Shown: piece after piece, positions 5,413-22,518 of the stretch | Layout of the letters: each line of letters starts with the position of its first letter | Numbering within the stretch: position 1 is the stretch's first letter | NCBI RefSeq assembly: GCF_001894745.1 | Contig: NZ_BBYF01000008.1 | Location: 1-64,000, forward strand | DNA: 64,000 bases | Source of the DNA: Paenibacillus sp. NAIST15-1 | GTDB taxonomy: Bacteria; Bacillota; Bacilli; Paenibacillales; Paenibacillaceae | Direction of reading: 5' to 3' | Position numbers and translations under genes: made by a program | The notes under the pieces: generated by a model | Databases searched by the model: none | What the model was told of the DNA's origin: nothing | The model's input: only the letters and a program-made list of their open reading frames with translations

Positions 5413-5940
5413 ATGTACAAATCATTAGGGCAATTTGAAATCACCTCCGGGAAACTGGTTGTATCCGATCCATGCTATGACTTGAATGAGAATACGATCA
5501 TTATGGGTGTGCTGGACGATGTGCTGAATGGAGCATGGAGCGCATATGTAAGCAAGACGGAGGTTCAAGATTGGGGAGAAGCTTGTGCCAAGCTCATTGC
5601 TTGTCATAGCTCGGTTGCCGATAAGCTGGAGACCCTTGAATGGGTGAAAGGGAACTTCATTGTAGGTGTAGATAGCGGACAGGCCGGAATCTTTGACGCA
5701 AGCAAATATCGAATTCCCGATGCCGATACAGATAGTACAGAACCCAATGATACGGACAGCGAATGGTATTACGCTTGCTGCGATATTACAGGGAGCGGTG
5801 AAGAGGCCGGTGTGCTGGATGGTGGAGTAGTTTCTCGCACAGGATTTGGCGATGGAGCTTATGCGGTGTATTATGCCGTCAACGGGCAGACTCAGGTGAT
5901 TGGAGTTAAGATTATTTTCATTAAAGACGCAGATTTATGA
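5413..5940 (+). CDS. Uncharacterised acidic cytoplasmic protein
   Basis: I do not recognise this 175-residue protein with confidence. It starts at ATG behind a strong GGGAGGAG site. Near the N-terminus it has VVSDPCYDL, and near the C-terminus FGDGAYAVYYA, a pattern that recalls DUF4241-type proteins. The middle (residues 100-120) is very acidic and Asp/Thr/Ser-rich. No signal peptide or membrane segment is evident. It stands alone, with a terminator before it and a bidirectional one after it. Confidence 0.7.
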   Translation: MYKSLGQFEITSGKLVVSDPCYDLNENTIIMGVLDDVLNGAWSAYVSKTEVQDWGEACAKLIACHSSVADKLETLEWVKGNFIVGVDSGQAGIFDASKYRIPDADTDSTEPNDTDSEWYYACCDITGSGEEAGVLDGGVVSRTGFGDGAYAVYYAVNGQTQVIGVKIIFIKDADL

Positions 5941-6015
5941 GAAACAACGGCAGAACTACTTGAACGGGTCATCGAGAAATGTCTGCTGTTAAAGGGTAAG
6001 GGTACTAACAAAGAG

Positions 6016-8280: not shown

Positions 8281-9513
8281 ATGAAGAGATTGCTTTTGTA
8301 CATGACAGTTATATGTATAGGGATGAGTGTTGGATTCAATATTCCTAACGTCTATGCTTCTTCACTTCGAGTCGAGGTGGATGGAAGGGAAGTAGCCTTC
8401 CCGGACGAACTCCCTTATGTGGACGCTGCTACCAACCTGACTATGGTTCCTGCCAAGTTCGTGTCCGAGAAGCTTGGCGCAACAGTGAAGTGGAACAGGC
8501 CGCAGAACCAGATCCTATTTACCTATAAAAATGATACGATTGCGCTGGGGCTTGGAGAAAATCATGCCATTGTAAACGGGGAAACCGTAACATTCGGTGG
8601 GGGCGCTCTGGTCAAAAACGGACGCACCATGGTTCCGCTGCGCTTCATTAGCGAGGCCTTTCATGCTCAAGTGGAATGGCAGCCGAAGCAGAATCAGGTC
8701 AGCATCATGACGGCCGTCAGCAATGTGCCGAAGGGGACATGGATATGGGACAGCCAAGTGATCGTAAGGGATTCAGACAAGGCGATAAGCTTGGCTAAAG
8801 AGCGCAATGTGACTACCATCTACCTTCAAATTAATACTGATATGGCCCCGGCGATCTATGAAAGCTTTGTTCGCAGCGCCAAGGAACAGGGGATTCAAGT
8901 AGAGGCACTAGAGGGACGACCCGAATGGGCTTATAAGAAAAACCAGGATAAAATAAAAAAATTCATTGCTTGGGTCAACGCCTACAATGCGTCCGTCGAA
9001 GCGGAGGCAAGGTTTGCGGGACTACATTTCGATATCGAGCCTTACCGCTTAAGCGAATGGAAGAAAGACAATAAGGTGCTTTTGGAAGGCTGGATGGACA
9101 ACTTGCGACTGATCGAGAAGGAAACCAAGGAGAACGATCTCAAAATTACGATGGACGTTCCGTATTGGCTGAATACGATCAAAGTGCCGGGGACGGATTA
9201 CAGCATGAGCGCATGGCTTTTGGAAAAATTCGATTGCCTGGTAATCATGAATTATCGCAATCATGCGTTAGGCAAAAATGGGATCGTGGAAAATGCGCAG
9301 GCGATGCTGAGAGAAGCTTCCACGCTGAAAAAGAAAATTGTCATTGCCGTGGAGACAGTAAAAAGTTCGGAGGGTCCACGGACATCATTCTACTCCATGA
9401 GCAGCGAAACGATGGAAAAGGAACTGCAAGCCGCCCATAACCAATTAACACGCTATATGAGCTATGCTGGATTTGCTGTTCATGATTTTAAAAGTTGGCA
9501 GGCTATGAAATAA
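8281..9513 (+). CDS. Secreted protein: copper-amine-oxidase-N stalk domain plus TIM-barrel-like domain
   Basis: The start at 8281 gives a clean signal peptide (KRLLLYMTVICIGMSV, likely cleavage after VYA); the longer reading begins in non-coding-like sequence. Residues about 30-140 are a copper-amine-oxidase N-terminal (stalk) domain, with YVDAATNLTMVPAKFVSEKLGA and the second repeat NGRTMVPLRFISEAFHAQVEW. The remainder, about 260 residues, has barrel-like segments (TIYLQINTDM, FAGLHFDIEPY, LKITMDVPYW, CLVIMNYR, KIVIAVET). The acidic FDIEPY strand end resembles glycoside-hydrolase-like barrels, but no enzyme family can be named. Probably exported and wall-associated. 410 residues. Confidence 0.85.
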   Translation: MKRLLLYMTVICIGMSVGFNIPNVYASSLRVEVDGREVAFPDELPYVDAATNLTMVPAKFVSEKLGATVKWNRPQNQILFTYKNDTIALGLGENHAIVNGETVTFGGGALVKNGRTMVPLRFISEAFHAQVEWQPKQNQVSIMTAVSNVPKGTWIWDSQVIVRDSDKAISLAKERNVTTIYLQINTDMAPAIYESFVRSAKEQGIQVEALEGRPEWAYKKNQDKIKKFIAWVNAYNASVEAEARFAGLHFDIEPYRLSEWKKDNKVLLEGWMDNLRLIEKETKENDLKITMDVPYWLNTIKVPGTDYSMSAWLLEKFDCLVIMNYRNHALGKNGIVENAQAMLREASTLKKKIVIAVETVKSSEGPRTSFYSMSSETMEKELQAAHNQLTRYMSYAGFAVHDFKSWQAMK

Positions 9514-19029: not shown

Positions 19030-19065
19030 AGGATAGCAACCCTTGAACTCAGGAGTTGCTATCCT
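19030..19065 (-). terminator. Terminator of the regulator/pheromone unit
   Basis: AGGATAGCAAC-CCT pairs with AGG-AGTTGCTATCCT (15-bp arms with one mismatch). On the minus strand it is followed by ATTTTGTT and lies about 75 bases beyond the precursor stop codon. Confidence 0.75.
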
Positions 19066-19141: not shown

Positions 19142-19360
19142 TTACCACCCTGATCCAATGTCCAAAGTTGACCATCCTGACCCGTTGTCACTTTTCGCTG
19201 GAGACCATCCCGAGCCGATGTCACTGACTGACCAGCCTGAACCAATATCACTTAACGGAGACCATCCTGATCCGATGTCAGCTAGATTCACTCCCGAAGA
19301 TGCTCCTGTAGAACCGAACAAGAAAAGAGCCATGGACATCGTGATTAATATTTTTTTCAT
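19142..19360 (-). CDS. Secreted multi-copy peptide pheromone precursor (putative), five D-I/N-G-S-G-W repeats
   Basis: A 72-residue precursor. Residues 1-20 are a Sec signal: two Lys, a hydrophobic core ITMSMALFLFG, likely cleavage near TGA-SS. The rest is five copies of a hexapeptide: DIGSGW at 28-33, 38-43, 47-52, DNGSGW at 58-63, and DIGSGW at 67-72, the last forming the C-terminus. Most copies are preceded by S or A and followed by S or SP. Start: AGGTGG lies six bases before the ATG at 19360. The first 83 bases overlap the 3' end of the RRNPP-type regulator gene in another frame, which is the usual place for the cognate signal gene. I infer export, proteolysis to short peptides, and re-import through an oligopeptide permease to bind the regulator. 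Similar regulator/precursor pairs (the Alo systems) have been described in Paenibacillus polymyxa, as I recall. A multi-core modified peptide is the main alternative. Confidence 0.8.
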   Translation of the reverse strand: MKKILITMSMALFLFGSTGASSGVNLADIGSGWSPLSDIGSGWSVSDIGSGWSPAKSDNGSGWSTLDIGSGW

Positions 19361-20633
19361 TTGAATCCACCTCATTTAATAGAATGTGTGTGAAACGACT
19401 TTTGTGCTCTTCAGAAGCATGGATCTCATACTCTTGAAAGGTGAGAACAGCCATTCCGACATACTGCATATTTTTAAGTGAAAGTGCCAGTTCCAACGAT
19501 AATGCATTGTAGTCAAATCCTAATTCATGTTGGGTTGTTTTCAAGTAGTATTGCGCCATTGCATGTGCAAGGCGTAATTTATGCTTTTCGTGGAAAGGAT
19601 CTTTTCTAGATAATAGATCGTCGATCTGAGCTTTGTATTTCTCGATATATATTGTGGCGGCTTGGAAAGCTTCATTGCTGACATAACATTCTAAAGCAAC
19701 AGGAACTACAAGAAGGAGTTGGTCACCTTCGAGCATAGCCATGAGCTTCTCAATAGACTCTTCTTGCTTCATTTCAATAGATATATATAGACGATTACAT
19801 TGAGACAGCCATGCATAATGATCTCCATATGAGGCATATTGCTGTGTTGCTTTTAAAGCGACTTCAAAGTTTTTCATTCCCTTAAGTGCAAACGATTCAT
19901 ACAACCAGCCTTCTGCCACGAAGTCATTTTGCCCTACCTCAAACGCAACAGCGCGCAATTCCTTGGCATACTGGAGCAGCTTTGCCCAGTTCTCTACGAC
20001 ATTGTAGTATGTAAGAATACGATAATAGGCGTCGAGCCTTAGTGAATCAGGCAGTATAGGCAGATATTCAATCAGCTGGCATAAGGCTTCGTTGCCGGCT
20101 CCACTCGTATCCAAGTCTCTCAAGATGAGGAATCTTCTGAAGTAGGAGATGGCTATTTTCTCGCTGCGGCTGTATCCATTGCGAATGATGATGTCGTAGA
20201 ACGGGAGTGAGTAGTTGCGTTTCGGTGACTGGAAGATGCGTTCGGCGATTTTGAAGGCGGTGTCGATCAGTTTGGAACGATTGGTTTCTTCATAGAGGAG
20301 TTGTACTAGCTGTTTGACCAAGTCATACTTTTCTACTTCAATACAGTGGAGAATAAAATCGCTTGTCTTATCAGGCCGCAATCGGCCCAGTTCGTTGCAG
20401 CATTCCCCTATGAATTCTTCATAGAAGGTGTCTATTGGTAATCCGAATGCATGATTGATCGCGTGGAGCTGAGGCAGCATAAGTGATTGCTTGTTGTTGA
20501 AAATGTAACTAATGGTTGAACTGTCGATGCCGGATGCCTCTGCTAACTCTTTCTGCTTCCACCCCCTTATGCTCAATTCATCTTGTAACCTGTGGCGGAG
20601 TTCCATCGGAGCTACATGAAGATTGCTTGTCAT
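19278..20633 (-). CDS. RRNPP-type peptide-responsive regulator (AimR/PlcR/Rap-like)
   Basis: A 451-residue regulator. Residues about 15-65 are a Cro/CI helix-turn-helix (WKQKELAEASGI, then DSSTISYIFNNKQSL). Residues about 85-430 are an all-helical repeat array with the rhythm of TPR-like units, for example SDFILHCIEVEKYDLVKQLV, AEGWLYESFALKGMKNFEVA and LRLAHAMAQYYLKTTQHE. The early repeat segment resembles AimR and the AimR-like Alo regulators. Start: ATG with AAGGAGG eight bases upstream. The gene ends inside the precursor gene downstream. In this family the helical domain binds a re-imported pheromone and changes DNA binding; direct repeats upstream of the divergent gene could be its target. 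Confidence 0.85.
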   Translation of the reverse strand: MTSNLHVAPMELRHRLQDELSIRGWKQKELAEASGIDSSTISYIFNNKQSLMLPQLHAINHAFGLPIDTFYEEFIGECCNELGRLRPDKTSDFILHCIEVEKYDLVKQLVQLLYEETNRSKLIDTAFKIAERIFQSPKRNYSLPFYDIIIRNGYSRSEKIAISYFRRFLILRDLDTSGAGNEALCQLIEYLPILPDSLRLDAYYRILTYYNVVENWAKLLQYAKELRAVAFEVGQNDFVAEGWLYESFALKGMKNFEVALKATQQYASYGDHYAWLSQCNRLYISIEMKQEESIEKLMAMLEGDQLLLVVPVALECYVSNEAFQAATIYIEKYKAQIDDLLSRKDPFHEKHKLRLAHAMAQYYLKTTQHELGFDYNALSLELALSLKNMQYVGMAVLTFQEYEIHASEEHKSRFTHILLNEVDSNEKNINHDVHGSFLVRFYRSIFGSESS

Positions 20634-20685: not shown

Positions 20686-20777
20686 AATTGACAATTTATT
20701 TAAATTTCTGTTGGTTTTTAGTATAAATGAAGATGAAGTAAATGGCAAATTGACATCTGGTTGAATTTCTATACTAT
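20686..20777 (+). promoter_or_regulatory. Direct repeats and promoter in the regulator / beta-propeller intergenic region
   Basis: The pattern AATTGACA-(6-7)-TRAATTTCT occurs at 20686-20709 and 20748-20770. The second copy contains the -35 TTGACA (20750-20755) of a good promoter with TACTAT at 20772-20777 (16-base spacer). The rest of the 385-base region 20634-21018 holds a 13-codon reading frame at 20897-20938 with GGAGG upstream, which I do not accept as a gene. Confidence 0.45.
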
Positions 20778-21018
20778 TTTTGTCGAAAAATGGAGAGTCC
20801 TACTTCGATCAGGTTGGCACGCAATAATTATCTATTGATGGCATATGCACAAGCAGCCTCACCTATAGGTTCATAGGATAGGAGGACAAATTACAGATGA
20901 AGCATTTATCGGGGAATCCATGCTGTAAGCGGTACTAAGTATAAGGGGAGTAGCGTTTGCAACCGGGCGTCCCTTACACTCTCTTGTACCTCCTATCTTC
21001 TCACAAAAAGGTGATGAC

Positions 21019-22518
21019 ATGTCCATAGAAGCGTTTCAAAGGCTGGTCAGCAATGCGACTTCTGTCTTTGTGGGTACGAACATGGATCAAGCTGCGCTGA
21101 ATGCGGCCAACGGTACAGGCACGAATGCTGACCAAGTAGCCCGCACCCTTGCTCCTGTAGCGTGGCCACTATTGGAGAAGTACGATAATGATAACAGCCT
21201 GCAAGCGTATTCTCCATTCGGAGGCGTTCCCAATCCGGAATACGTATGGAAGCTGCCGGTATCTGATGGTCAGACATCGGCTTTTGCAGCAGCTTCCGCA
21301 CCATTTCTGATTCCTGCGGGTGCAAGTGTCTCGTTCAGCTTGTTTCTCAATGCCTTTGCCGACAATGCGATGGAGGCGAGAATTGAGCTTTTTGAGGATA
21401 CGGGCGGTGCTGGGACCGGGCCCTTTGCGAAGTCTGCTGAGCAGCCTGCGGGGTTAGATGACTTCTTCTTGATCGCGGGAGATCCCAATATGCCAGCACT
21501 CGGACTCCTAGAGACGCAGCCGTATAACTGGCAGGATATCCGCGTATATTCTACTCGCTGCCTCGTTTCTGGTTCGCCAACCGCCTCTCGAACATTCAAA
21601 ATCGTAGTTTCCTTTCATGTGACGAATTATCTTGTCATGAATCCACCGAATCCAGCCGGCTTGCAATTTGCTGTCGATATGTACGCTGACGGACCTGATT
21701 ATCTGTATGTATCGAATGTAGGCGATAAGACGGTAGAAATCTATAATATCTCAAACCCTACAGCTCCTGCGCGTATCGGGCAGTTTAATGGAGGCAACTT
21801 GAACAATCCAAGAGGCATGGCGATAACCGGAACCACGCTCTATGTTGCGAATGCAGGCAGTTCCACGGTGTCTATGTATAATGCAGCTAATCCAACAGCT
21901 CCTCTGTATATAGGGGAATTTAATGGAGCCAACTTAAGCTCTCCTCATGGCTTGGCGATAACGGGCACTACACTGTATATAGCCAATCGGGGGGATGGTA
22001 CAATTGAAATCTATGATATTTCAAATCCTACGAATCCTGTGCATGTAACCGAGTTTGGCTCAGGAGATTTGCACCGACCTGAAGGCCTCGCAATAACGGG
22101 CACTACGCTGTATGTAGCCAATCAAAATGATGGTACGGTCGAAATATATGATATTGCGAATCCGGTAGCTCCGGTACGCGTAACTGAGTTTGGTTCTGGA
22201 GACTTAAGCGAGCCTGTAGGACTGGCGATAACGGGAACCACGCTGTATGTCGCCAATCAGGGCAACAGCACGATTGAAATTTATAATATTACGAACCCAA
22301 TCGCTCCGGTGCGTATAACTGAATTTGGTTCAGGCGAGGTAAGCGAACCTGCTGGAATGGCGATAACCGGGATCACGTTGTATGTAGCCAATCAACTTGA
22401 TAACACGGTTGAAATTTATAATATTTCTACTCCAACGTCCCCTGTGCGGGTGGGAGAGTTTAATGGAGGAAATCTAAATCAACCTTACGGGTTGGAGATA
22501 AATTCGTTTGTAGGCTAA
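21019..22518 (+). CDS. Beta-propeller protein with six LVIVD/NHL-like repeats
   Basis: A 499-residue protein. Residues 1-230 are a unique domain without a signal peptide. Residues about 230-495 are six repeats of about 46 residues, each with the pattern (R/E)P.G(L/M)AITGTTLYVAN, then T(V/I)EIYNI.NP..PVR(V/I). These build one beta-propeller, probably for protein or ligand binding. At DNA level the repeats are 138-141 bases and well diverged. Start: ATG after AAAGGTG. It is divergent from the peptide-responsive regulator and could be its target. No anchor or export signal was seen, so location is open. Confidence 0.82.
   Translation: MSIEAFQRLVSNATSVFVGTNMDQAALNAANGTGTNADQVARTLAPVAWPLLEKYDNDNSLQAYSPFGGVPNPEYVWKLPVSDGQTSAFAAASAPFLIPAGASVSFSLFLNAFADNAMEARIELFEDTGGAGTGPFAKSAEQPAGLDDFFLIAGDPNMPALGLLETQPYNWQDIRVYSTRCLVSGSPTASRTFKIVVSFHVTNYLVMNPPNPAGLQFAVDMYADGPDYLYVSNVGDKTVEIYNISNPTAPARIGQFNGGNLNNPRGMAITGTTLYVANAGSSTVSMYNAANPTAPLYIGEFNGANLSSPHGLAITGTTLYIANRGDGTIEIYDISNPTNPVHVTEFGSGDLHRPEGLAITGTTLYVANQNDGTVEIYDIANPVAPVRVTEFGSGDLSEPVGLAITGTTLYVANQGNSTIEIYNITNPIAPVRITEFGSGEVSEPAGMAITGITLYVANQLDNTVEIYNISTPTSPVRVGEFNGGNLNQPYGLEINSFVG

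Follow-up and report, generated by a model that had tools for sequence, protein, structure and literature searches.

Organization of the locus

The window analyzed here is a 64,000-nucleotide stretch of Paenibacillus sp. NAIST15-1 (contig NZ_BBYF01000008.1, positions 1 to 64,000). It carries two overlapping minus-strand genes, one for a receptor-type regulator (451 aa) and one for a small precursor (72 aa) in which a six-residue unit, D-(I/N)-G-S-G-W, occurs five times, the final W being the final residue. The pair is interpreted, with a probability of about 0.8, as a two-gene signaling unit whose precursor would be exported and cut into hexapeptides that re-enter the cell and switch the receptor. 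Features are listed below by window position, all on the minus strand.

20748..20787, conserved non-coding block, possible operator, 115-154 bases before the receptor start, aligned by eye
20720..20748, promoter-like TTGCCA-17-TATACT before the receptor, 10/12 matches, site number at chance level
19278..20633, receptor/regulator gene, 451 aa, open frame, with homologues in the genus and a remote full-length Alo-like homologue
20427..20567, helix-turn-helix (HTH) domain of the receptor, residues 23-69, Pfam HTH_3 (33.7 bits, cut-off 23)
19278..19360, overlap of the two genes in different frames, 83 bases
19367..19373, precursor ribosome site GAGGTGG, kept in most P. alvei-group loci
19142..19360, precursor gene, 72 aa plus stop, five DIGSGW-type units, with synonymous pattern and relatives
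19280..19360, predicted N-terminal export signal of the precursor, residues 1-27, MKK plus hydrophobic stretch, by eye
19262..19279, unit 1, DIGSGW, residue 28
19232..19249, unit 2, DIGSGW, residue 38
19205..19222, unit 3, DIGSGW, residue 47
19172..19189, unit 4, DNGSGW, residue 58
19145..19162, unit 5, DIGSGW, residue 67, exact C-terminus
19030..19065, hairpin then U-rich stretch, likely terminator of the two-gene unit, -21.6 kcal/mol, z -4.77

The precursor is read from an ATG at 19360 to a stop codon at 19142-19144, and 6 bases separate the ATG from the end of GAGGTGG. A first-pass annotation, made from the letters of the window, had described the 72-residue frame with its five units and terminal W, which was correct to the base, together with a good ribosome site and an 83-base overlap with the end of a regulator, both confirmed. 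The overlap recurs in relatives: among the 17 loci that have a precursor frame, its length is 83 bases in 7 and 47-95 bases in the rest. The Sec signal that it had proposed agrees with the MKK and hydrophobic stretch, judged by eye as a sequence impression only. The stability of the hairpin was matched by 0 of 200 shuffles, and the gene beyond it runs in the opposite direction; because of this terminator-like hairpin and the oppositely oriented neighbor, receptor and precursor look like a closed unit.

Coding evidence for the precursor

Differences among the five window units (34 in total, 10 pairs) were distributed 0/4/30 over codon positions 1/2/3. The proportion of synonymous differences (pS) was 0.76 and that of non-synonymous differences (pN) 0.028; units were chosen by motif, which biases pN downwards but not pS. 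Across eight precursor genes the corresponding counts were 44/12/154 (53 pairs), calculated without drifted units and without the DNA-identical units of P. dendritiformis and genome G018, whose identity is the pattern expected from recent duplication. Because the units share amino acids while their differences sit mostly at third codon positions, the 72-residue frame is, on codon-level comparison, a real gene; the synonymous/non-synonymous check proposed in the first-pass annotation thus favored coding. The pattern xxGxGW occurred 12 times in the six frames of the window, 5 of them in the precursor frame, and this concentration, with its recurrence in other species, places the clustering beyond chance. 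No naming family for the precursor was found among Pfam or PHROGs. In a protein database, 6 of 27 candidates were relatives at E up to 1, one of which differs by a single residue.

Receptor domains and placement

The N-terminal HTH expected from the first pass was recovered by Pfam, and the remainder, described there as helical-repeat, is a predicted tetratricopeptide-repeat (TPR)-like helical array, with NprR as its first-ranked match. No Pfam TPR family matched in the 8 receptors checked, and PHROGs and NCBIfam matches for the receptor were to generic HTH only. The Alo anchor was the receptor beside SHGRGG in genome G123 (AloR13-like, not the AloR13 reference entry itself). The profile match to it had an E-value of 1.4e-32 and spanned its residues 25-475, and the receptor family compared with ten Alo-like rows gave 99.9 over 406 columns. 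Identity to the anchor was 19.7-24.4% in 13/13 rows; alignment A1 held the window receptor and 12 of 19 database proteins. By profile and alignment, the receptor is a remote full-length homologue of Alo-like receptors.

Three existing assignments were rejected. Under the rule of PMC10075063 (≥30% identity over 80% coverage to AloR13), the 19.7-24.4% identity excludes AloR, so that the Alo kinship raised in the first-pass annotation stands as remote homology and not as membership. The AimR profile search that it had suggested gave no match of the window receptor to NCBIfam model NF038310 at E up to 1, and AimR membership was rejected on this basis; 2 of 13 subfamily members matched the model (best 4.4e-05), and 0 of 6 in another set at E up to 0.1. 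Cluster 8 (subfamily 08) was rejected as no DPG motif was present in the 17 precursors listed. The receptor reads as an undescribed RRNPPA subfamily, apparently sister to Alo/Aim and with a G-x-G-W peptide.

A tree was built from 14 receptors, namely 13 of the 18 close ones (5 broken or truncated receptors were dropped) and the AloR13-like one. A clade (98/98) united the eight P. alvei-group rows, each of which has 2-6 units, and the single-unit rows of genome G013 and of Brevibacillus type fell outside it. A single unit is likely ancestral, graded no higher because the tree program warns of long branches.

Relatives and copy-number series

Regulators of this kind were found in 10 of the 19 genomes of the genus. 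Family-wide, 14 of 394 genomes matched at E up to 1e-30, the 4 other than these ten being weaker Alo-like proteins. Named carriers are P. alvei, P. apiarius, P. profundus, P. dendritiformis, Paenibacillus sp. 2.1 and B. laterosporus. Comparison of the small frames downstream of homologous regulators, proposed at the first pass, showed that 17 of the 18 close loci have an overlapping precursor frame, its export signal being assigned by eye. At least two units were present in 10 loci (2-6), one unit in 7 and none in 1, as follows.

Window locus: 5 units
P. profundus: 4 units
P. apiarius, four loci: 6, 4, 4 and 1 units
P. alvei: 4 units and a drifted one
G016: 3 units
G007: 2 units and a drifted one
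P. dendritiformis: 3 units
G018: 2 units
G013, two loci: 1 unit each
B. laterosporus: 1 unit
B. halotolerans plasmid: 1 unit
Two IMG/VR contigs: 1 unit each
Paenibacillus sp. 2.1: no unit found

In P. dendritiformis, G018 and sp. 2.1, a shared 24-base deletion (L031 about 9190-9393; L056 about 5825-6000; L036 about 8540-8670) takes out the usual precursor ribosome site and MKK start. The receptor frame is kept in phase across it. The repeat part is retained in P. dendritiformis and G018, which are the two precursor-bearing loci, out of 17, without the usual start. Of the 18 receptors, 5 were broken or truncated, namely those of P. alvei and sp. 2.1, one of the G013 receptors and two of the P. 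apiarius ones. Judged from this distribution, the receptor-precursor pair is gained, lost and eroded among relatives.

In P. alvei DSM 29 (L029 8001-9353), the receptor has an in-frame stop and the repeat-bearing precursor frame is intact. Genome G013 has four Alo-like receptor genes in succession (L058; L021, L024, L025, L027). A 71% identical receptor (P0010) lies on short contigs labeled Bacillus cereus, a label that may be wrong.

Viral contigs, plasmids and the size of the signal

Two IMG/VR contigs carry receptor relatives of 42-44% identity with single-unit precursors, adjoining repressor-type HTH genes (L079 2983-4402; L080 2971-4375). The precursors end YGEGW and VGEGW, and rescanning the viral sequences gave these two contigs again. 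L079 also carries an endolysin, and a Rha-like frame is present in both contigs on our own reading. Their host is probably Brevibacillus, because of kinship. By gene neighborhood, the placement on these contigs is arbitrium-like; the arbitrium-like character suggested earlier for the window pair fits these relatives and is conjectural for the window locus itself. None of the window neighbors compared with Pfam was phage-type, a result for those neighbors and not for the rest of the window.

The C-terminus is the usual place of an RRNPP signal, and GEGW forms the exact end of the four Brevibacillus-type single-unit precursors (one chromosomal, one on a plasmid, two on viral contigs). A match was found in 33 plasmid and phage records, of which 12 were inspected, one close and 11 remote. 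The remote loci had a two-unit precursor in 3, one unrepeated exported frame in 5 and no frame passing the filter in 3; at one of the last (L085), a small gene is annotated in the record. The two-unit precursors were phage Emery gp61 (L082 4275-4406; ...SVSA-HGGIGW-...-HGGIGW), a Brevibacillus sp. DP1.3A plasmid precursor (...GANA-EDGPGW-...-EDGPGW) and a B. borstelensis plasmid precursor (...AASA-DIGERP-...-DIGERP), those besides Emery lying at L088 2905-3000 and L090 2880-2954. In all three, an A-x-A-like signal-peptidase site directly precedes the first copy and the second copy forms the C-terminus; the hexapeptide copies within each differ only synonymously, and the precursor does not overlap its receptor. 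The Emery receptor shares 23% identity with the window receptor and 25% with the AloR13-like one. Because of the C-terminal GEGW and the remote pairs with copies at a signal-peptidase-like site and the C-terminus, the signal unit is most likely six residues long. The heptapeptide DIGSGWS would be the alternative, since S follows most inner units; a hexapeptide with a final W is the simplest reading of the sequences. Window unit 1 is preceded by alanine, which is not general in the genus.

Comparison with known systems

For AloR13 of Paenibacillus polymyxa, the mature peptide is SHGRGG and the peptide turned its target off (PMC7425212). The window pair resembles AloR-AloP in that a small exported precursor comes after a receptor with HTH and helical repeats, in full-length homology and in hexapeptide size, but differs in having only 20-24% identity to the AloR13-like receptor, in GxGW instead of ..RGG and in up to six units; no spo0E-like gene was seen beside the window pair. 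Repeated AloP is not mentioned in the parts of the Alo literature covered (PMC7425212). With AimR-AimP it shares the order of receptor then precursor and a hexapeptide signal, and two viral-contig relatives from its own subfamily lie beside repressor-type genes, whereas the peptide is another one and the AimR model is not matched.

The first-pass annotation had presented a tandem multi-copy precursor as new, and this was overstated. Repeated Phr precursors have been published (PMC5199041), repeated precursors of AimR, NprR, PlcR and Rap systems reach six copies (PMC9765709, in which AloR is named in the introduction only, not in the tables), and two Phr cases with repeated units were processed and active, with up to eight copies mentioned (PMC11343458). 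Rap-Phr, NprR-NprX and PlcR-PapR are thus alike in several (near-)identical mature peptides per precursor, up to 6-8 copies, but their receptors belong to other subfamilies than the window's.

RRNPP_detector cluster 8 (subfamily 08) has DPG peptides (PMC10075063, PMC12700828). It shares the family Paenibacillaceae and a presence on chromosomes, plasmids and phages, and differs from the window subfamily in those peptides. Strain LMG 15441 is named for a plasmid with cluster 8 and AloR (PMC10075063, PMC12700828). Its plasmid receptors showed 20-25% identity to the B. laterosporus member, and a precursor on plasmid pBRLA33 ends DPGY; this pair would belong to cluster 8. The literature search returned no description of the window pair, most subscription journals and all supplementary tables being outside its scope. 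The multi-copy principle is therefore already in print, and the subfamily, the peptide and the 1-6 copy series appear new. The earlier interpretation was right in part: its kind, a peptide-receptor pair whose precursor carries the signal several times, is well supported by sequence comparison, and its novelty was set too high.

Proposed mechanism and alternatives

In the proposed mechanism, the precursor would be exported by Sec, extracellular proteases would release the units as several hexapeptide copies, an oligopeptide permease would take up the hexapeptide, and this would bind the predicted TPR groove of the receptor. The receptor may then act on the block at 20748-20787 to control the promoter of its own two-gene unit. 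Each transcript would yield more signal when the precursor holds more units, and the density needed to flip the switch would therefore be tuned by copy number.

A narrower account is that one unit alone, C-terminal or freed by signal peptidase, is the signal and the inner units are inert duplicates or spacers. Most known RRNPP signals are C-terminal, one-unit relatives exist, and window unit 4 and single units elsewhere have drifted; the inner units are nevertheless conserved as protein despite saturated synonymous change, and release and activity have been published for each of the two identical copies in one Phr (PMC11343458), so that this account is considered rather unlikely. It is still less probable that the pair is a worn-down arbitrium-type module from a mobile element, non-functional in this genome. 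Relatives on a plasmid and on two viral contigs and the broken receptors in 5 of 18 loci would suit such decay, but in the window neither reading frame is broken, the units are constrained as protein, and the locus has a ribosome site, the promoter block and a terminator.

The repeat protein might instead work outside the cell or at the membrane, as a bacteriocin-like or adhesive product or as the precursor of a modified peptide, with the regulator merely controlling it. The sequence picture would be no different for a small exported repeat protein encoded next to a regulator, and no Pfam or PHROGs family names the precursor. It is made very improbable by the arrangement of the hexapeptides, the constant overlap with a receptor-type protein, homology to Alo and the lack of a common modification, transport or immunity gene (neighbors compared by BLAST, some by Pfam). 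A non-coding repeat, open by chance, would account for a tandem-like pattern overlapping another gene, but it was rejected as scarcely credible given the 0/4/30 codon pattern and the conservation of frame, start and units across species.

The exported, multi-copy signal precursor thus remains the preferred interpretation. If correct, it adds a receptor subfamily probably missed by detectors based on TPR models, and provides a natural series of 1, 2, 3, 4, 5 and 6 units behind one receptor type. It could therefore be tested whether unit number sets signal dose and quorum threshold, or feeds the birth of new signals. Related signals would occur on phage, plasmid and chromosome in two sister genera, and cross-talk could be tried with synthetic peptides. 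A wider and more doubtful proposal, which we hold only tentatively, is an Alo/Aim-sister subfamily sharing one G-x-G-W hexapeptide language among Brevibacillus phages, plasmids and Paenibacillus chromosomes. The precursor would have been amplified on the chromosomes, to six units at most, unit number would act as an evolvable volume control, and carriers that lost the precursor start or the receptor would be listeners or talkers in one network.

Upstream region and possible targets

The block at 20748-20787 was clear in 8 and weak in 3 of 13 upstream regions, and was not seen in the remaining two, B. laterosporus and sp. 2.1 (all by eye). Promoter-like sites around 20750 numbered 5, against a mean of 4.9 in shuffles; of the promoter placed there by the first-pass annotation, the sites are thus at shuffle level and the conserved block stands. 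Autoregulation of the pair through this block is plausible. A regulon could not be drawn from an operator search: with up to 3 mismatches allowed, the genome has a single copy of the block core, and the shorter piece TTCGACAAAAATAG was present in 12 of 19 genus genomes, 8 of the 12 without the receptor, and sits away from the receptor in two receptor-bearing genomes (G011 and G013), so that alone it is unspecific.

No conserved target gene was common among the flanks compared across loci. Flanking genes agreed within two groups, the window with P. alvei, and P. dendritiformis with G007, G016, G018 and sp. 2.1. Across groups the sole shared flank was one small gene, found in the window and at a P. 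apiarius locus on the opposite side of the pair. A 499-residue protein, missing at the matching place in P. alvei, is encoded on the other strand of the window at 21019-22518; it starts 385 bases from the receptor start and carries LVIVD and lactonase-type propeller repeats.
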